A stretch of 64,000 bases of DNA from Naegleria lovaniensis (Eukaryota > Heterolobosea > Eutetramitea > Acrasida > Naegleriidae). A program made the translations under genes and the position numbers. The DNA lies in contig NW_025407856.1 of NCBI RefSeq assembly GCF_003324165.1, positions 372,001-436,000 on the forward strand, given 5' to 3'. The notes beneath the pieces are model-generated. The model saw only the letters and a program-made list of their open reading frames with translations. It was not told the origin of the DNA and did no database searches. How positions within the stretch are numbered: the first letter of the stretch is position 1; each line of letters opens with the position of its first letter. Shown piece after piece: positions 2,151-60,703 of this stretch.

Positions 2151-3840
2151 ACCATCGTGATATGGATAACAACGAGTGCATCATGATTGAGAGGATCACA
2201 TTGTTACATGCACATGTGCATTCGGATCCTTCAACCTCACATACACACACATGTAACAATATCAGTACATGGACCACGGAATATGGTCATGTGCTTCCGA
2301 GAAGAATATAATTTTGAAAAACGAATGTATTTGTACATATACAAGAGAGAGTTTAGATACAATACAATAAATTGTATGATGGCATGGTGTCCATCGAATT
2401 GTGTTTGTTAAAATCATCATAGAACGAGGACAATTACCGGTTGATCTTTCTAAATTTGTAGAAAATACAAAATACTTTTTGGAATGTATGGTAAAGTTGT
2501 GCCAACATGGGAACTGTAGAAAAGCACAGCACATGTCGATACATCTTTACACTCTACAGGTTGAACAATAGAAAAGCACTGCACAAAACAATCTTCTGAA
2601 CAATTTGTTGTCGAATAGCTGTTGAGAAATTTCCCACTTGCTAGCGATGAAACAGAGATAAGGCAAATTGTGTTACACAGCTTCCTCAAGCATTACGAAC
2701 AGATAGAGTGCACACCAGAGATATAAAATAACAACAAATTTGTATCTGTTTCATTTACCGGTAGTTTGAAATTAATTTGTTAATCGCAAAGGAAGAATGG
2801 ATCATTGGTTGAATTACTTAGCCACCACTCCCCGACACATGGTAATGAGATAAACGCTTCATTCATGCTTGAGCCGTCCTTATTCTCCATTTCCAATTAT
2901 TTGAAATAAGGCAACCTTCTAACGACGACCCGAGTGTTTCGTTCCAACAACCATCGTTCAAGAAAACGGCAATACAAATCTCCAAATGGTGAGTTTGGCG
3001 AAATCAAGCAATGACAAACTGTAATCATGTCAGGTATCATTCTCAATTTTTCGACTCGATCTGAAAAGGATGGGCACTGGCTCTATTAGATCACATGCCT
3101 TGCCATTCCAGATGAGAATATGTAGTAGTTCGATTACTCGCTTCTTCGTTGTTGGCGAAGGAATTATTTACTTACAAATTGGATGAGAAGAAGAGTTACT
3201 AGCAAAGACTTGTTGATTTTTGAAAAAAAAGACACTCCAACACGTTCTTTTCGTTTCAAAATTTTCTCAACCTATTCCTCTTAAAAGTCCACTCGTTGTG
3301 CAATCACTAGGTAGTTAAAAAGTCTTTGAGTGCAGTCTGATCGTCTTTTTGTCAAAATCAGGCAAGCTTGAACAATTTGTTCTCCAGCGAGAAGAAGAGC
3401 GTGAAGGGCGTTTGACCAACCGTCCATCACAACAACAACCACCAAAAAAACTCTTTCCGTATCTGGTCCTCTTTTCCTGCACACGTTTCTCTCTCTCTGA
3501 AGCGAATCATTGGAGTATTTGAGCTCTTTTTGTAGGAGTGTGTTCATCAACGATACAACCATTCACCCTATAGAAGCGCTTCTTTTCCGCACACACATTG
3601 TATTCGTCATTGTTGAAATAATAGAAGAATATACTTGGCATTGTTAACGACAAGAACATAAATTGCGGAAGAGACCTTTTGAAATTTAGGACTAGTACGA
3701 ATAGTATTGTTATTATTATTGCGTTATTGGACTTTGAAAATTCAATCGTTAGTTCAGACTCGCTGCCTCGGGCGGTGAAACATTCAATAACAACATACAC
3801 AATTACAGAGATATATATCCTCATCATCACGAATATTAAA
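2151..3840. other. Long non-coding or unrecognised stretch
   Basis: This 1.7-kb stretch is the longest here without a convincing gene. Short ORFs occur on both strands, but none has family resemblance, coherent composition or a linkable exon. A CA-rich run lies near 2240-2255. The last 160 bases are the leader of the RGS gene, open in frame but without an ATG before 3841. I see no tRNA cloverleaf or transposon signature. Confidence 0.5.
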
Positions 3841-5505
3841 ATGGGAAATTTGTATAGTAAGAACCATCATCAAGGAGAGTGCCGGTGGTATAGTATGGGA
3901 CCGATACGCAGTTTCAGACGAAACTCTCACCACACTTCATCTACAACAACAACAAATACCAAACAACAAGAAGAACCACATCCAACCACTTCCTCGTCCT
4001 TACAGCGATTTCAAAATTCATGGACTACTACAACAACGAATTCTCCTTCACTCACCAACCACTCTTTCCCCTCCTCTTCCAATCACAGCCATACCTCTCA
4101 TTCCCTTCAATCTTTGAGTCACAGCAACACCTTGATGCCTTCGTATCATGCTCATACTCAAAGCGCTGATTCATCCATCGCTTCTACAAACATCACACCA
4201 TTCATCTCTTCTTCGATCATTCCTTCTGCTAACACCATCACTACCCGTAACATTCCTCCAGAATCATCGTCACTGACGCCTACATTAAAACCACCTTCAC
4301 CCACAGTCGCACCACCGTCTCAATATTATTCACGGTTTACCATTTCCTCGACGAATACCAGTAATAATACTGAAGTTATTGAGTCTCCACCAGTGGTTGT
4401 CAACAACAGTGCTACTGATGGTACCAGATTTGTTGATACATTAACGAACAACCATGGTAGTTTTAGAAACAAAAGATGTAATTTATCAAGACAATCTTTT
4501 TCGCTGCCAAAATGTAGATCTTGGTTTAAAGAAAAGACGAAAAGTCTGCGAAGTTTACATCTTCTGCGGAGAAGGTCCACCACCGAAGACACAAGATCAA
4601 CCATTATTACTGGAATTCCACTTATTTCCAATGATGACAACAATCAACACAAGCAAGAGCAACAACAAAAAAATGGTATTGAGTTACAAGAAACACACGT
4701 AGTGAACAGCAACACGAATACAGATGTTTCTACCGGTGTTGGACATGTCACGACGGGTACAGACACTCGAGAGGTGAACAGAAGCAATGAAAGTATTGAG
4801 CGAACAAAAAGAGTATACTCTATATCAAATTTGAGTGCTGCCAGTGCTGATTCATGGTCAAGTAGTGGAAATGTGCTCCAACGAGCAGAAGAATCAGAAA
4901 CAACCATGTCTTTTGATCAGAAGGACGATCGAAGAAAGTTGGCCTCAATTTTGCAAAGTCGTATCACAAGATCCAAGTCAGAGTTCAGTAAGCCAAGAAT
5001 CTCTCAGGAAGTAAATGCCTTTGGAGATGATTCGTCTCCTCAACGAGCCCCTGTGGCAAGGTCATCCTCAGCACCAAGTATTATCAATAATGAACTTGAT
5101 GCTTTGCTCAGAGACGCAATTGGTTATCAGCTATTCAAAGATTTTTGTGAGAGCGAATACTCAGTCGAGAATTTGAAGTTTTGGAATGAATTGCAAGACA
5201 TGGAAAAGAATTTTATTGACATGTCAGGAAAGAGAAGAAGTAAGGTTATTAATATGGTCTATGACAAGTTTTTGGATGAGAATTCAACTGAAGAGGTTAA
5301 TGTACGAGGTAAAACTAAAAAGCTAGTTGATCAAGAGAGAAAGAGTGGCAACATTGACCTAGAGAGAGGAAGCCAACTTATTCACGAGCTTAAGAGAGAT
5401 TTGTACATTAACATGATTGATTCGTTTTCTAGGTTCCATCGCACTGAAGAGTATAGACTCTGGAAAGAGCTCAAAGAAAATCCAGAAAATACCTTTGAGT
5501 TTTGA
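3841..5505 (+). CDS. RGS-domain protein with predicted N-myristoylation
   Basis: A 554-residue intronless protein. The reading frame is open further upstream, but 3841 is its first ATG and the resulting N-terminus MGNLYSK fits the myristoylation rule (Gly2, Ser6, Lys7), suggesting membrane attachment. Residues about 20-300 are Ser/Thr/Asn-rich and probably disordered. An RGS domain fills the C-terminus, about residues 415-550: an LDALLRDAIGYQLFKDF start, an ENLKFW core, and a closing MIDSFSRFHRTEEYRLW segment. RGS domains speed GTP hydrolysis by G-alpha subunits. Between them are basic and phosphorylatable stretches. A G-alpha gene and a second RGS protein lie in the same window. Partner G-alpha is unknown; domain call is firm. 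Confidence 0.88.
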   Translation: MGNLYSKNHHQGECRWYSMGPIRSFRRNSHHTSSTTTTNTKQQEEPHPTTSSSLQRFQNSWTTTTTNSPSLTNHSFPSSSNHSHTSHSLQSLSHSNTLMPSYHAHTQSADSSIASTNITPFISSSIIPSANTITTRNIPPESSSLTPTLKPPSPTVAPPSQYYSRFTISSTNTSNNTEVIESPPVVVNNSATDGTRFVDTLTNNHGSFRNKRCNLSRQSFSLPKCRSWFKEKTKSLRSLHLLRRRSTTEDTRSTIITGIPLISNDDNNQHKQEQQQKNGIELQETHVVNSNTNTDVSTGVGHVTTGTDTREVNRSNESIERTKRVYSISNLSAASADSWSSSGNVLQRAEESETTMSFDQKDDRRKLASILQSRITRSKSEFSKPRISQEVNAFGDDSSPQRAPVARSSSAPSIINNELDALLRDAIGYQLFKDFCESEYSVENLKFWNELQDMEKNFIDMSGKRRSKVINMVYDKFLDENSTEEVNVRGKTKKLVDQERKSGNIDLERGSQLIHELKRDLYINMIDSFSRFHRTEEYRLWKELKENPENTFEF

Positions 5506-20595: not shown

Positions 20596-23500
20596 CTACT
20601 CGTTATTTCCCATGTGAGATAATGAAAATTCCAAACTTTCTACGAGTCCTCCATTGATAGGTCTCTCTTTTTTCAGAGTTTGTCTTGCATTTACAGTTCG
20701 ATTCAAAAGAAGATGGAATTGATTTCCTCGTTCCTTATACATGTTCACTAAAAAATCCGAACCAAGAAAGCCTCCAAAATCGCTCACGATTTGATACGTG
20801 TATTTGGAACGAGTGTCGCTAATTCGTTCAACAATGAAAAATGTTTTCAATTTGGCTCTAACCTGTTTGGAGGACTCTGGGCATTTCACATTTGTCACAG
20901 ATTTTTGAAGGAAAATGTAAGTACTAGTATTCTCTCGATAAGTACAGCATTGTGCAGTGAGGAAATCTCGATTGGAGTTTGGCCATGCCATTGAATAGAC
21001 GTCACTATTGTTGCAAGCAAAGCAAGTATGGTCATGTGTTGCAATTAATATTTGGTAAGCTTCATTACGACAATTCTAAAACAAACTTACTGAATAATAG
21101 CAGAGGCAAAATGCCTTCCTGACACATAATCAATTTGTTTGGAACTCAAAATACTAGGATCTCTCATGTAGAGATACTCTGGATCAATCCATGTGTTAAA
21201 GACATTGTGATTCGAGTGATCAATTTGTCCACAAAATCGTAGAGCAGTGTGCTTTTTCTTTGCTTCAATGTGAATGTGTGCACCCTTGGGACTAACAAAC
21301 ATCTTTCCTTGTTGTGTTGAATCTGATTCAATTTGTGTCCATCCTGTGAAATCCATGGATTGATCCAATGCTTTATCAAAATCTGATTTCACAAACAATG
21401 GATCCTTGAAATCGACAAGCACATCGCCACACTTGCTACATGTTTTCCTATCTTTTGTATTTTCTTGCTCTTGTTCTTCCAAATTGTCTTCAAACAAATT
21501 AAGTTGTGAAGAATCTTCTTTTTCTTGCTCGGATTGAATGGTCTCCTTTTTCATGAATCTCACATAAAAGGTTGGATCCAATTTTCTCTTGTTCTCCACC
21601 CATGTTTTAAATAGTTTCGACGAACAGAACTTAGGGAATAGATTTTGTCTCAACTCATCCAGCACTAAATCCAAATAATTCTCAAAGAGATAGGCAGGAC
21701 AGAAGACCTTTGAATGTTCCTTCCATTGTTGGATGAATTCCTCTCGTTTCGATTTGATGAATTTGAGTTTGTGTGTTGCATTCTCAGCAATGAAATTTGA
21801 AACAATCTTTTCAGCCAATTCATATCTTTCCGAAATTGTGGGAGTTAATTGATATTCCATAATGTGTTCAAAGAAAGAAAGAGTATCTTGCTGACCTATT
21901 GTTGTTAAATAATCTTTCATTTTGCTAATGAAAGAAAAGTCTTGTAGCAATAACTCAAAATTGTATGAGGATGGTTTGTAAAATTCTCCCTCAGTCAAAT
22001 TTTTGAGAGTGTCATCTTGTTGACGAAGTTCTTGTCCAAACAATTGAACAAGGTATTGAATGGATTGACCCTCTCCATTTTCCAAATTGAGATATTTGGC
22101 CAGCGGATACAAAATTCGAGCACAGCAGAAATGTCCTTGTTTGAGAGCAATATGAAGTGGAGAGTCCAAATCATTGTTCTGAATAAAAATACAATCTGGG
22201 TTAATGAAGAGTAAAACGAAGGTAATTTCTGATTGGTTGTGATTCACGGCCACATGGAGAGGAGTATTACCGTCCTTATTTTGTGTGGAGCTTAGTCTTC
22301 TCACAACCTCTTCAGGCAGCACGCTCAGTAATTCTCCAAGAGAGTCAATTAATCCAAATTCTGCACAAACATGAAAACAAGTGTCATTGTTCTCGTTTGT
22401 AATCTCTAGAGGTCTCAAATTGTAATGCGCAGTGACATCAAATTTTTCATAAGACGAAGTCTTATTTCTCTCTATCAAATCCATTAAAATCTGATTCAAA
22501 ATGGCTGGATGATGCAACGCAATGAAAATTGGAGTTTCTCCATTAATGTTTGGAATGGTCAAATCACACTTGCAACGACTCACAAGAAAATGTACACTCG
22601 TAATGAGATCTTTCTTGATGGCCATGTGAATGATGGTATTTCGATCACTTCCCACTTGAACATTGACATTGGCTTTTCCAAGTTCATACAACACACTAGC
22701 TGCTTGGAAATTTTGTGAATCCATGCACAAATAGAAGGGAGTATAACCCTCATGATCCATAATATTCACACAAGCACCCTCCGAAATTAAATATTGTAAA
22801 ATAGCTGCTGTTCGATGTGGGCTCACATTGCACGCATAGAAGATTGGACTTCGTCCTCTCTTGTCTCTGTATTCTAAATCGGCATGAAATTCCTTGTGAA
22901 GAAGCCGAATAATTTTAATATTTTCGTGAGCCACGGCTGTCATGAGTAGGGATCGTCCAGTTTGCTCCGAAACATAATTGGTATCGACGTTGAATGGAAT
23001 TATAACTTCAGAATTGTCATGGTCTGTTGTCATTGATGTTGTCTTGTTGTCTGCTTGGATGTTGCTTGTAGAAACAGAACTTTCAGTTTCTCCAATGCTA
23101 TTGCTACTAGTGCTGCCATTACTACTGTCTGTAGGATGGGATGGCTTAGAGGAATTTGTGGAATTATTTTGATCATTGAATGTCGTCTCGGGTTGGATAG
23201 TAGTAATATTTTGCGAGGAATTATCATGTTGTTTGGCATGAGTTGCTTTTTCTTGTTCCTCTCTCAATAACTTTTCCAATTTATCAATTTGTTGCTCAGA
23301 AATTAAACGATGCAACAATGTAATCAGCTCTTGTTGTTTTGATTGAGATGCAGAAATGGTGGGTGTTACATTTTCCACCACTTGAGTCGATGTCACAATT
23401 GAAACTTGTTGATTCTTATCTTTTCCTCTTCGAGCCGTATTTCCTCCACTTGGTACACTTGTACTTCCAGTGCTGGAAATGCTATCCCGAACTCGGCTCG

Positions 23501-24260
23501 ATTGAATGCTAATTGCTGGAGAAGTGGTCACTCCATGTGAATGATCATGAATAGCAAGACTTAGGGTTGAAAATGGGAGGACAGTGCTAGTAGTTGTTGG
23601 CTCGTTACAAATAATCAGAGAGTCTCTTATTCTTCTGCCTGTTGAGGTGATACTATAATCTGGATAATTGTTGCTTTCATTTTGGGATGTTTTGGTCGGA
23701 GTGGAATAATTTTTGTGATCCATCTCATGGTTGTTAGTAGAAGAATTGTCATCATGATGGGTCTCATGATTATTGGCATTATCAACAGCAGCAGCACCAT
23801 CAGTAGTCTCAACAGCAGCTGTCCTTGGAGAATTTTCAGAAGAATGAATTGTTCCTCCATTTAAACTTTGCTCCAACAATTTAAATTCCTCATTGACTCT
23901 TCTCTCATCACGATTGAGAGGTGGCGAGTCATCCACATGGGATGATGGAACGACGTCGTTCGGAATGGTTTTGGACTGAGTTGAATCATTGTCATGTGGT
24001 ATACTTTCATTGTTGATGGGAGTGATAAGAGTAGTAGATGCAACAGTTGTTGTAGAGTTGTTTTGGTGGTCAATTGGTTGTTGTTGGTCTTTCAGTACCT
24101 GTAATGATGACGACGATGATGTACAGTCCTGCGACAATGATGATGAATTGGTTGTGTTAGAAGTCGACATGGAATGATTTTCAGTGGATGATGGTTCGTG
24201 TTGTTGAATGTTTTCTGCTCCGGTAGTTGGGTCTCTTGCTGTGTGCTCTTCTTCTGTCAT
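20596..24260 (-). CDS. Ankyrin-RGS-START multidomain protein
   Basis: Exons 24260-21091 and 21004-20596 (86-bp intron, phase 2) give 1192 residues. Residues 1-310 are Ser/Thr/Asn-rich and disordered; a short coiled coil with QQELITLLHRLISEQQ follows. About eight ankyrin repeats span about 433-750 (GRSLLMTAVAHENIKIIRLL, GNTPLHVAVNHNQ, DSPLHIALKQGH). About 757-890 reads as an RGS-type helical domain (LSFFEHIMEYQLTP, then ERYELAEKIVSNFI and SKLFKTWVEN). A CSKCG pair precedes a START-like lipid-binding domain, about 960-1190, that is completed only by splicing (FASAIIHDVYSMAWPNSNRD). It could couple G-alpha signalling to lipid sensing. The start is the first ATG; the upstream frame has only TTG. 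Ankyrin is certain, RGS and START good. Confidence 0.82.
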
Positions 24261-24632
24261 TTTTATCAACTGGAAAAGTTGTTAGATTTGACATGTAGTG
24301 TCGTGCCATAACGACAGAAAAGGTCAATGATGCGCCCATAACGTTTTATATCCCCAGTTATTTGAATTTGCAAAGAAGTTGTAATTGTGAGTTATTATAA
24401 CAGTTTTCAATGTTGTCCCATGAAAAATCATGTGAATGATTCACACCATGCACACGTGTTGACCCTTCAAGAAAAATAGTATTCACTCATCAACCGCTCA
24501 ACGTTGGGACCAACAGTCCCAGCTGTTTTTGGCTTATGTTCGTCATCAATGCGCCGTTACTGACCGTTACACAATTTTTAAATTTTTAAAACTGTCACCT
24601 GCCAATTTGACGATTTTCAACAACAAAACAAA
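24261..24632. promoter_or_regulatory. Divergent promoter region between START and BTB genes
   Basis: 372 bases between two head-to-head start codons. It contains several AT-rich tracts and no supportable ORF. Both genes must be driven from here; no specific operator is recognised. Confidence 0.45.
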
Positions 24633-54772: not shown

Positions 54773-56668
54773 ATGTCGTCGTTAACGGCACAAGTTGTGG
54801 TTTTGAAAGAGGAAGAGGAGGAACACTTCTCAGATTCTCGGATCGTTGAATCATCATCTACTACTCTTGTGGGAGAAGTTACAGATGAAAAGAAACAATC
54901 GGAGGATCCGTTGGAATTGTTGATATTTGAAAAAGTACAAACTCACGGAGATTGTAAGCGAGGATTTACCTATTCCTTACTCAAGGAAGAGGAGAATGAT
55001 TTCAAAGCAGCGGAAGTGGCTCGCAAGATCAGAATGGTGTCTTTGGACTTGCCGAGTTCCGAAATGAGCAACAAACCCTCTCGAGGAAAATGGCAATTGG
55101 ATGTTTACAAATTACCATGGTCTGAAAAACAAGTGCCCCAACGAAAATTATATGATCCTGAATATCAAATATCATTTCCACTAGCTCCTGTAAATATGTC
55201 ATCATGCTGTTCTGAACTATTGTCTCCACAAAATATCCTTAAAATTGAATCAAGTCACAATCATTGTTTACTTCTTACAAGTAAGTACCCAGCAACATAA
55301 CTTTTAATAATATTAATAATTTTGTATTCAATTTTCAAAGAGGATGGAGTTGTTTACAGTATGGGTGATTCAGAATTTGGTAAACTTGGAAATGGTTATG
55401 AGCCACAACAAACAAACAATCATCCATTTATAAGAAAACCCATCTTGTTGATGGATAATGCTATAGATATTGCAGTCGGAAAAAATCATTCTGTCATTGT
55501 CACTAACGAAGGAAACGTTCATACATTTGGTTGTGGAAAATATGGTCAACTTGGACATGGCTCTGTTAAGAATGAGAATGTGCCGAGAGTTATTGACGAT
55601 TTTATCACCAGAGATATCAAAGTGATTTCAGCCTCTTGCGGTGACAATCATACTCTTTGCTTAACCAGTACAGGCCTTGTTTATGGATTTGGATCTGGCA
55701 GCTCTGGCCAACTTGGAATATTGAGCTTTCTAGATAGAAACCATGATTTACAAATCCATGAAAAAGCTCAATTAACGTACGTTTGCTCGCCCAGATTGGT
55801 GCAAGTCATGAGGCCAGTACAACAAGAAACTGAGGAATATCGTCGATTAAGAACAAAGAAAACCTTCGTTGAGATGGACAAAATTTGTTGTGGCGCTGAT
55901 TACTCTGCATTCTTAACCAAACAAGGTCAATTATGGCTTTGTGGAAACGGATTGACTGGAGTCATTTGTAATGGAACGTTTGTCGCCAACAATTTCGAGC
56001 CCACTGAAAGTCAGTTTCTTGCACCATCTCCAAGAACAGAATCCTCCATTGTCACACAAATTAACCTTGCATCAGGCTCTTCCGATCCCAATACACTGGA
56101 CGTGAATGTTGACATGACGCTTGATGTAAAGATGGTTCAACCACCCATTCCTAAATTTCTACCTTACTGTCATGAAAAACCACAATCCACAGTACGAACC
56201 ACTCCTGTCAGTAGAGCTTCGAGTTCGGCGCATTGGCAAAAATACTTTCCCTCACATCAACAGAAAGCAGAAGGACAAACCATCAAATTTATTGACATTT
56301 CTTGTGGAAAGAGTCACATCTTTTGTTTGGCAAGAGATCAAAGAGTTTTTGCAGCAGGGCTCAACTTTAATGGTCAACTAGGTATTGGTTCCAGAACGTC
56401 TCAGTGTCGACTGGTGGATGTCACTCCTCATTTACCTCACCAATTGAAAGTAGAAGGAATACAACAGATTGTTTGTGGACCTGATTTTACCATCCTCATA
56501 AGTGCTTTAGGAACTGCATTTTGTTCTGGAAGATTCCCTGGTAACACTGAAGACTCACTGAAGTTTGTTCAAGTCACAAGTTTGAGCGATTTGAATTGGT
56601 CTGTCGAGAAGGTATTTTCGAAAAGCTATTCCCAAGTGTTCGCATTGTGTAAGAAGAGAACTGAGTAG
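54773..56668 (+). CDS. RCC1-repeat protein
   Basis: Exons 54773-55280 and 55341-56668 (60-bp intron, phase 1) give 611 residues. The first 150 residues are Glu-rich then unassigned. RCC1 repeats follow: DGVVYSMGDSEFGKLGNG, NVHTFGCGKYGQLGHG, LVYGFGSGSSGQLGI and, after a long insertion, RVFAAGLNFNGQLGIGS, with SASCGDNHTLCL and ISCGKSHIFCLA strands between. This predicts a seven-bladed propeller, broken by a loop of over 100 residues. RCC1-like propellers act as exchange factors or protein scaffolds; no HECT or kinase domain is attached. The intron falls at the start of the first blade. Confidence 0.88.
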
Positions 56669-56893: not shown

Positions 56894-58849
56894 TTACTTA
56901 ACACACTTGATCATGAAATTTATATTGACAAACGGTTGCATATTTTCATGTGCTTGATCACCTCCTTCTGTAGCAACAGTATGGGTATGAGGTTGATGAT
57001 TGCCACCAGTATCCACACCAGTATCATACGCCAAGGCACCTTGTCCATCACCGGTGTAAGTGGTTCGAATTCCATTACCACCATGATTGAAGTTAGCAAC
57101 CGCGTGTTGTCTATGAGTATGCCCATTACTTTCATTTCCAGTGTTTCCACTGTGAGCATGCTTTGGCATGTGTTGGATGAATAATTGCACTGCTTCCGTA
57201 CCTCCTTTGTGACCTAACTTGCGATCTGTCAGACCTGATCCTTGTCCAGCACCCACTGGAACTCTCCCTCGTAAGTCAGGAAGAGCAAAATTTAAAACAC
57301 CATCTCCTCCAAAGGTCGTACCAATGACTGCAAACAGATCTGGATAGGAGGAGCAACTCAATACTGAACCATCACACCATTTCCAACCCTCTGGTTCGAC
57401 ATGGCCTGAAAATAGTTTGATAGCCCCGATAGGAACATTCAATCGAAGTTGGTGTTTCAGCTCCTTCTCAACTTTCGCTAGTTGCTGGAATAATTGCTCA
57501 ACCAAACCGTAAATGACCACATGATTTGTGTCTTTCATCAATAACTTGGTCACTATTTCATTAGGTGAAATTTGGCTTAACACATCGCTTGTGTTCAATT
57601 TGTAGATTAATTTTTCACCTCCTTCAAACAATTTTCTCTTGCGGTACGTTAAGGAAACAAAGTTCACCAATGATGATTTTTGAAGTCTTTGCAAAGCAAT
57701 CGATTTTGGAACTATTTTCTCACCCTCAAACTCAAATCTCACTTTTTTCTCCATAAGAGTATTCAGTTCATTCAATTGCTCGTTCAAACTCTTATCACTG
57801 TTGGCCCAAGATTTGGATTGTTCCATGGCCATAGATGCATCTACACTTGTAAGACCACATCCAACGCTCACCTCAGCGTCGAAACTGGAATGCTCAGTTC
57901 CACTATTCTGATTCTCTAAATTGACCTTAATGTAATCATGTGTGTCACGCTTCTCTCGAGTAAAAGTTCGTTCCAAGGACTTGCGAATGGTGTCAGCTGT
58001 AAAATCGCCCTTCACATTGAGTCCATACTTGCTCAAGCTCAAAAGGCCCAATTCTGTAAAATCTGTCTGGATCTGATTTTGAAAATTGGTCATTCCTATC
58101 AAATGTTGAAGGAATTCTTTTTCAAACTCTTTGGCGTCCAAACAATTGTACTCTTCCAAGATGGTCAAACTGTGGAACAGTCGATGTGAAATTTCACTCA
58201 TTTGATTTCGAGTGACTAACACTTCTTGACCTTTTCCAAAAACGTCATCCATTAAAGTGGTAATGGCAGAGTTGTCACTGGTCATTTGAACGGATTGCTC
58301 TTTTACCCTTGTTCCGTTGAACGCAACGAATAAGGTCACGCTGATACCGGTAGTATCGAGTACTCTCTTCTCAAGTTCTTCCAATACTACACGATCCATA
58401 ATTGGAAATTCCAATTCACATGGATTGTTTTGAAGCACACTTTGAACTCGACCAGTCAGCACATGCCGAACACCATCAATCTCCAACTCAATCTTTCCAG
58501 TAATTTCATCACAAATAAGAGTTTTGATCTGTTGCGGATCGACAACCTTTCCAACACTGGAAGCACCACTTTCATGAGAAGCTTGAAGTGCAATAACTTT
58601 CTTCTCCTCTTCTGAGAGAGCCATTTTCACATACAGAACGAATTTAAATGGCAATTTTTCCACATGATAGAATGTTTTTTGGGAATGGACTTGGTTGTTC
58701 CACACAATTTCAGGTTTTCCAAAAGAGTACCATTTCATTTGAGAAACATGGTGTTCCTTCAACGAAGAGTTTTCTGTGGATTCGTAGGCGACAAGAGTAG
58801 AATTTTGCCAAGGACAGGTCAGAGGTGCTTGAATGGTCACGAGAGGCAT
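56894..58849 (-). CDS. Large protein ending in a phage tail-collar domain
   Basis: A 651-residue intronless protein. The last 185 residues match phage tail-collar / microcystin-dependent-protein domains: NVPIGAIKLFSGHVEPEGWK, WCDGSVLSCSSYPDLFAVIG, FGGDGVLNFALPDLRGRVPV, then many paired His (MPKHAHSG, GHTHRQH, HQPHTHTV) and the closing NMQPFVNINFMIKCV. In T4-type fibre tips such HxH motifs bind metal in a trimer. The first 465 residues have no recognised domain; they look mostly strand- and helix-mixed, with no signal peptide or membrane helix, so a cytosolic or unconventionally released protein is likely. The start at 58849 is the first ATG of the frame. Probably acquired from bacteria or phages. 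Eukaryotic copies are rare; the role is unknown. Confidence 0.88.
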   Translation of the reverse strand: MPLVTIQAPLTCPWQNSTLVAYESTENSSLKEHHVSQMKWYSFGKPEIVWNNQVHSQKTFYHVEKLPFKFVLYVKMALSEEEKKVIALQASHESGASSVGKVVDPQQIKTLICDEITGKIELEIDGVRHVLTGRVQSVLQNNPCELEFPIMDRVVLEELEKRVLDTTGISVTLFVAFNGTRVKEQSVQMTSDNSAITTLMDDVFGKGQEVLVTRNQMSEISHRLFHSLTILEEYNCLDAKEFEKEFLQHLIGMTNFQNQIQTDFTELGLLSLSKYGLNVKGDFTADTIRKSLERTFTREKRDTHDYIKVNLENQNSGTEHSSFDAEVSVGCGLTSVDASMAMEQSKSWANSDKSLNEQLNELNTLMEKKVRFEFEGEKIVPKSIALQRLQKSSLVNFVSLTYRKRKLFEGGEKLIYKLNTSDVLSQISPNEIVTKLLMKDTNHVVIYGLVEQLFQQLAKVEKELKHQLRLNVPIGAIKLFSGHVEPEGWKWCDGSVLSCSSYPDLFAVIGTTFGGDGVLNFALPDLRGRVPVGAGQGSGLTDRKLGHKGGTEAVQLFIQHMPKHAHSGNTGNESNGHTHRQHAVANFNHGGNGIRTTYTGDGQGALAYDTGVDTGGNHQPHTHTVATEGGDQAHENMQPFVNINFMIKCVK

Positions 58850-59432: not shown

Positions 59433-60703
59433 ATGAAAAAAAGCAGCTCACCACTTCTTAACTTTCAATTCATCACAGGAGTCATTCCATCGGGTTGGAA
59501 AGGAACCAAATCATTGATTCTTCTGGGTACGGGAGAAGGAGGAAAAACCACATTTCAACGCCAAATCTATCATTTGAAAAATCAAGAATTAAATACAAAA
59601 GAAAGACATAAATATGCAGAGACCATACAATACTCGATATTCAATAATTTAAAAACAATTACAGAACATCCATCAGTGGTATTGAACTCGGAATTGAAGA
59701 AATTGGCCTCGGAATTGGCATCCTTGGTCGATCAATATGTCGATTCTCGATTTGACCATTCCCATCGAGAGAAACTTGTCAATCAAGGACCAATATTCCA
59801 AAAACTCGTTGATCATCACCACGTTCGAGAGGTTATTGAATCTTGTGAATTGTATCCACAACTGCATTTAACTGGAGATTACAAGTATTTCTTTAAACAT
59901 TACACTAGAATTGCATGTAAAGAGTATCAACCAACGTTTGAAGATTTTAAAAGAATGCAACTCAAAACAGTGGGTGTCATTAAAGGAGAGGAAGTGGAAT
60001 TTGAAAATTACAAAATTACCATGTAAGTGTGAAAATCATTGGTGACATGATTGTTTTTAATAATAATTGTTGGTGTGGAAACATGAATGACATTATCATG
60101 ACAGAACTGATACTGGAGGTTTGTTTGTATTTTAACAAAATATTATTTGAACATTTAAATACATTTTGACTACGAAATTGTTTCATTAATGAACCACAGG
60201 TCAACGAAATGAAAGAAAAAAGTGGGCAAAGGCACTCTCGCAGCGCACCGATGCAATTTTATTTATGGTTTCAATGAGAGAAGCATTCCAAATGTGTTAT
60301 GAAGATCATGAGTTGAATAGGTGTGTTGAAGTGTCAAATATTTAACTTTGTGTTAAAAAATATTATTATACTTACCGATCACAATGATACAAGATCGAAG
60401 GAAACGATTGATTGCTTTCAAGAATTGTTGAGTTTAGAGTATGTCAATAATTGTCCAATCTTTGTGGTGTTTACAAAGACGGATCTATTAGAGGAAGTTT
60501 TGAAGAAGCGAAAGGTGTCATTCAATTCTACATTTCCAGAATATAAGGGTGACAATTATTCTATAGAGGAAATTAAGTCATTCATGAAAGAAAAGTATCA
60601 ATCGTTGGATTCCAACAAACAAATTAAGGGTTTTTTTTTCATTAACACCTTAATCAGTAAGGAGGTTTCTGACACATTACAAAAAGTGTTGGAACAAATT
60701 TAA
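59433..60703 (+). CDS. Divergent heterotrimeric G-protein alpha subunit
   Basis: Exons 59433-60022, 60105-60118 (14 nt), 60200-60320 and 60394-60703 give 344 residues. The P-loop reads GTGEGGKTT (canonical GAGESGKST). The helical domain follows. Switch I is RMQLKTVGV, where the catalytic arginine of R-V-x-T-x-G is Gln. The 14-nt exon supplies TDTGG, which joins QRNERKKW to form Switch II, DTGGQRNERKKW, with the catalytic Gln intact. The base-binding NKxD appears as TKTD and the TCAT motif is not recognisable (FFINTLIS). The N-terminus lacks Gly2 for myristoylation, and no C-terminal receptor-type tail is evident. It may bind nucleotide weakly, stay GTP-bound longer, or act unconventionally. 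G-alpha identity is firm, activity uncertain. Confidence 0.85.

Follow-up and report, generated by a model that had tools for sequence, protein, structure and literature searches.

A nuclear gene of Naegleria lovaniensis appears to have acquired the receptor-binding tip of a viral tail fibre through horizontal transfer, and this tip would now form the C-terminal head of a longer protein; we give this reading somewhat better than an even chance. The gene was analysed within a stretch of 64,000 nucleotides (the window; assembly GCF_003324165.1, contig NW_025407856.1, C37:372001-436000). It lies on the minus strand at 56894..58849 of the window (428,897-430,849 of the contig) and translates as a frame of 651 residues with an ATG start, a stop codon and no internal stop, and an A-rich leader immediately upstream of the ATG. 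The captured segment would comprise a helical stalk, the collar and a distal domain bearing HxH motifs, and would now head a protein whose first ~440 residues are without significant relative in the searched collections.

The C-terminal collar and distal region

Pfam Collar (PF07484) was matched over its whole length (model positions 1-57 of 57) by residues 475-531 (57257..57427, minus strand), with an E value of 3.9e-23 and a score of 81.6 bits (cut-off 24). PHROG tail families were also matched, the best being phrog_8763 (residues 464-648, E 3.1e-30), and T4 gp12 was returned by a PDB sequence search (E 1.1e-8). The tail-collar domain that an initial annotation had placed at the C terminus was thus recovered, and the hallmark sequence quoted there, PDLRGRVPVGAGQG, is present in the translated protein. 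By tblastn, matches were found in 1,092 phage records when the whole protein was the query and in 1,244 when the collar part was. The whole protein also matched 120 plasmid records; among the 20 listed, the matches were on the collar side only. A Faecalimonas phage match apparently covering residues 356-648 was dropped because its portion ahead of the collar was a poor alignment extended through gaps. Pfam RE_SinI (0.032) and, on P0001, NCBIfam PRK06019 (0.0017) and Lp6.6 (0.17) were below cut-off and were taken as chance.

The distal region, residues 532-651 (56897..57256, minus strand), closes with a strand of viral-fibre type, NINFMIK. HxH motifs occur here as the initial annotation had stated, but its description of them as many was overstated: there are three, at residues 564, 577 and 621. 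Across the 44 rows of alignment A3, the histidine pair of the first motif (H129/H131) did not vary. Three HxH are also found in many viral rows; the geometry of the putative metal site is without a confident model.

Residues 436-651 were modelled as a monomer with AlphaFold2 from a 44-row alignment (43 of 47 references plus the query; L014, L008, L009 and L010 were left out), and the same residues were used as input for Foldseek and VIA-align. The model has a helix at residues 441-470 (57440..57529, minus strand), a probable trimerising stalk, and block values of the predicted local distance difference test (pLDDT) of 89-95 from residue 446 on. The collar core has the fold of a tail fibre tip of the T4 gp12/gp37 kind. 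The position of the modelled helix ahead of the collar fits a trimer stalk, and a coiled coil within it is no more than suggestive.

Affinities of the collar

Collar loci were fetched as the best 80 of 594 relatives from IMG/VR and the best 80 of 554 relatives from bacterial genomes, plus phage and plasmid records. From 168 collar-matching loci, 110 were taken (best by bits, length 130-230) and combined with the query into a quick tree of 111 rows, all chosen by similarity to the query. A viral set of 26 rows, comprising 24 IMG/VR contigs, one phage and one Planctomycetota metagenome-assembled genome, was recovered with a support of 96. A PSR-like C-terminal tail, scored by a simple pattern, was found in 0/26 rows of this set and in 73 of the 84 others, which include three viral contigs; the query has no such tail. 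Three or more HxH were counted in 12/25 viral rows and 0/85 others, and the query has three. The absence of the tail and the HxH count favour, as sequence characters, a viral kind of collar. The highest identity to the query in the tree was that of a viral contig (L015, 47% over 144 columns). When the query was constrained to group with the viral set, the log-likelihood was 22.59 above that of the free tree (p-AU 0.684).

Several results weigh against capture of a viral tip. The free tree gave the query a long branch (1.52) and placed it with bacterial, Bacteroidota-rich rows; this placement carries little weight because the constrained tree has the higher likelihood. The tail and HxH characters were picked after the tree had been seen and, since the free tree groups the query with bacterial rows, the viral origin of the collar is not settled by these sequence comparisons. 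A simple heptad score of the helix was reached by 103 of 2000 shuffles, and distal residues 576-615 were poorly modelled (block pLDDT 44-54). The Foldseek template modelling scores (TM-scores) were low, owing to this bad model of the distal part, the supposed binding region: the best PDB match scored 0.33 by query length, and the 50 of 197 viral matches listed scored 0.23-0.39. A whole-protein model from the single sequence gave a mean pLDDT of 30.5 and a predicted TM-score of 0.19, with no usable model of the N-terminal part.

The N-terminal part

Residues 1-435 (57545..58849, minus strand) are without significant relatives in the collections searched. For residues 1-465, no Pfam family and no PDB sequence was matched at E<=10, and no PHROG below 0.018 when these residues were searched alone. 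Residues 1-468 were compared with 14,841 translated segments from 170 fetched loci, and none was under E 1 except a pre-selected Klebsiella fibre. Scans by exact short peptide patterns, which detect close kin only, confirmed no relative of the whole protein in the collections of genome contigs and viral contigs, nor of residues 1-465 in the viral contigs. In keeping with the earlier view of this part as unlike known fibre shafts, it had no significant relative across Pfam, PDB, PHROGs, phage records and the fetched loci. A match to Fil_haemagg_2 (0.03), obtained when residues 265-440 were searched alone, was below cut-off and was taken as chance.

One local likeness was seen. Residues 349-425 (57575..57805, minus strand) have a weak, unproven similarity to a module found in the straight tail fibres of Klebsiella phages (37.7% over 77 residues, tblastn E 8e-3), and apart from it no shaft family was found N-terminal to the tip in PHROG or Pfam. 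The match was to 47 phage records; of the three opened, two were Sugarlandvirus and one was labelled Straboviridae. For the family phrog_3890 the E value was 0.018 when residues 1-465 were the query and 0.00097 for a short piece. We regard the Klebsiella fibre match as not significant. If the likeness were real, part of a fibre module would have been captured along with the tip.

In the record labelled Straboviridae (PP355766.1, 288,685 bases, titled as a complete phage), an unannotated copy of the Sugarlandvirus fibre module was noted at 547-1374. This record may be a mixed assembly.

Alternative origins

The collar could instead have come from a bacterial stand-alone collar protein of the MdpB or 'microcystin-dependent' type and have since diverged. 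The free tree, in which the query stands beside a Crocinitomicaceae row (support 85), and the many bacterial sequences among the top bit scores point that way. Against it, the query lacks the PSR-like tail carried by most rows outside the viral set, has three HxH where 80/85 other rows have one, and joins the viral rows with a better likelihood under constraint; we consider a bacterial source possible but unlikely. A similarly doubtful route is through a eukaryotic virus, a giant virus or virophage of protists that bears its own collar proteins. Among the 50 of 197 Foldseek matches listed, a Cafeteria roenbergensis virus collar was third by E value (33% identity, TM-score 0.34), and Orpheovirus, Fadolivirus and Terrestrivirus were also present. 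Virophage collar proteins are in print (excerpts of PMC3671162 and PMC12724248), and a Klosneuvirus infecting Naegleria is named in an excerpt of PMC11043551. No viral family, on the other hand, was above cut-off in the 20 neighbouring open reading frames (ORFs) scanned. A genome search for the capsid family PF04451 gave no match, and its controls were equally silent.

Alternatively, the protein in its entirety might derive from a phage fibre, with a shaft now too diverged to be recognised. The match of residues 349-425 to Klebsiella fibres would agree with this, as would a Smith-Waterman score of 105 against 300 shuffles (mean 42.0, sd 4.9, maximum 71), for a pair pre-chosen for matching. All 47 records, however, were Klebsiella phages, and the module was near-identical where aligned (three copies). 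A scan for intermediates of the module yielded one contig of 123,490 bases, equal in length to the known IME260 record, and the rest of residues 1-440 had no fibre match above chance. We consider capture of a whole fibre improbable. Bacterial contamination or mis-assembly is very unlikely, because the gene has eukaryotic neighbours (RCC1 and G-alpha genes), lies deep in a contig of 487,001 bases and has, in both halves, codon usage within the local range. The collar is moreover in frame with a 440-residue part that was not found in any of the collar loci fetched from prokaryotes and viruses. Capture of a viral tail-fibre tip remains the preferred reading and, because codon usage is host-like, the transfer was probably not recent.

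Comparison with known collar proteins

In T4 gp12 and gp37, a helix and collar form homotrimers and the distal part binds an envelope glycan or protein; gp37 holds metal at HxH sites. The Naegleria protein differs from gp12 (1ocy, 5iv5) and gp37 (2xgf) in being encoded by a eukaryotic nuclear gene with no tail genes around it, in having no recognisable fibre shaft, and in a distal receptor region without a confident model. Collars of Microbacterium phages are 32.5% (DelaGarza gp22), 35.9% (Quhwah gp43) and 39.4% (MO526) identical to the query and end in NYIIKT or QFIIKT strands, much like it. They differ in lying within phage tail gene clusters; that of Quhwah is short (189 residues), and that of DelaGarza (562 residues) has a different N-terminal part.

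Bacterial stand-alone collars of the MdpB or 'microcystin-dependent' type were described as 'tail fiber protein' in the bacterial records opened. They share the collar core with the query (identity 32-39% and 34-42% in two comparisons, and 54% in one shorter match). They are short proteins, usually with one HxH and a PSR-like tail, unlike the 651-residue query with its three HxH and no such tail. Over 168 loci of all kinds, the median number of residues upstream of the collar in the same open segment was 33.5, and it exceeded 300 in 13.

Collar genes were seen in rows of three on four of the six bacterial plasmid records opened (L009:434-2013, L012:504-2070, L011:927-2599 and L013:397-1998). 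The third copy on L013 was only partly annotated, as a hypothetical protein. A GNAT acetyltransferase gene lay within ~1.3 kb downstream of the rows on L009, L012 and L013. Such an arrangement points to a conserved cassette in bacteria, separate from any phage.

Viruses of protists, both giant viruses (Cafeteria roenbergensis virus E3T4R8, Orpheovirus, Fadolivirus, Terrestrivirus) and virophages, also have a collar domain, but in viral genes. Organic Lake virophage OLV18 and OLV19 are collar proteins according to an excerpt of PMC3671162, and further virophage examples appear in an excerpt of PMC12724248. In the protist Plasmodiophora brassicae, Pb4_109755 is listed as 'Phage Tail Collar Domain' (excerpt of PMC9530463); it is short (191 residues) and was drawn from secretory proteins. 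An excerpt of PMC3482391 mentions Naegleria in connection with toxin and immunity domains rather than collars, and no paper on a Naegleria collar gene was found in the open-licence PMC literature. The initial annotation's suggestion of an undescribed system was accordingly too strong, because collar proteins of a protist and of virophages are in print and giant-virus collar proteins appear by name among the Foldseek matches. The novelty, as judged by sequence comparison, is that a collar is fused with a long stretch for which the Pfam, PDB, PHROG, prokaryotic and viral collections searched gave no significant relative.

Possible function

By analogy with T4 gp12 and gp37, the helix and collar would assemble a homotrimer. 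The distal part would bind a polymeric ligand, most likely a bacterial envelope glycan as known for gp12, and its HxH sites may carry metal; the N-terminal part would serve as the effector or anchoring half. The protein would most likely be intracellular. Its targets could be bacteria, or pieces of them, that have entered the cytosol or phagosome, or it could serve merely as a trimerising scaffold.

The highest mean hydropathy over 19 residues was 1.38, inside the collar, and no membrane segment was seen. Tail sheath PF04984 was not found in the genome at E<=0.001, a search in which the control was positive in 3/14 genomes and introns could hide split matches. The tube protein PF06841 gave no match in the genome, and its controls were silent too. 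A soluble, trimeric intracellular protein, whose head either binds a ligand or does no more than trimerise, is the favoured interpretation, because no membrane segment or export sign was seen and no tail-sheath gene was found. Of the uses proposed earlier, adhesion or prey binding received no support from targeting, and a contractile device found none in the search for a tail sheath.

Phage receptor-binding tips are modular and very stable trimers that select bacterial surfaces. A more speculative and rather unlikely extension is that this phagotrophic protist uses the protein as its own sensor or effector, a phage-derived pattern receptor. The trimeric, metal-bearing viral tip would recognise bacterial envelope glycans and the N-terminal half would give a cytosolic or phagosomal response. 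If a bacterivorous eukaryote has kept such a tip within an intact gene, it would clearly exemplify how a cell can put a viral recognition module to use.

Genomic setting

The assembly comprises 30,690,286 bases in 97 contigs, and the gene lies ~56 kb from the end of its contig. The window has a GC content near 0.38 and a compact gene layout. By family scan of the window ORFs, the collar gene is flanked by RCC1 repeats at 55322-56668 and a G-alpha exon at 59433-60026, rather than by virion tail genes. RGS, ankyrin, BTB-BACK, PIG-V, Mut7-C, WD40 and V-ATPase C/AC39 matches were found elsewhere in the window. The scan covered 20 of the 38 other window ORFs of >=150 residues, several of which had no family. 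A v110 match on one neighbouring ORF (0.0025) was below cut-off and was taken as chance.

GC content at third codon positions was 0.373 for the whole collar gene, 0.402 for residues 1-465 and 0.299 for the remainder, compared with 0.296-0.427 for 15 other window ORFs. By codon-usage likelihood, both gene halves were within the range of these ORFs, which were mechanically defined and also served as background. The location among ordinary eukaryotic genes and the host-like composition reported initially were both confirmed.

The search for paralogues that the initial annotation had proposed found no second copy in the genome: this gene was the only match, whether the query was the whole protein, residues 1-465 or residues 265-440. 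These counts are lower bounds because matching is exon by exon, and split paralogues could escape. The Collar family search of the genome returned this gene and one further place, C7:421358 (17.8 bits against the cut-off of 24). The latter was rejected by eye as a second Collar, its frame being charged and Cys-rich and without the LPDLRGR motif.

Within its 64 kb the window contains a pair of RGS-domain genes, of which one has ankyrin repeats, together with the G-alpha gene (3679-5505, 21087-24269 and 59433-60026), so that genes for G-protein signalling are locally clustered. Elsewhere in the genome, a run of collagen-like repeats was noted at G000:C12:271804-272646, with in-frame TGA codons in three matches.
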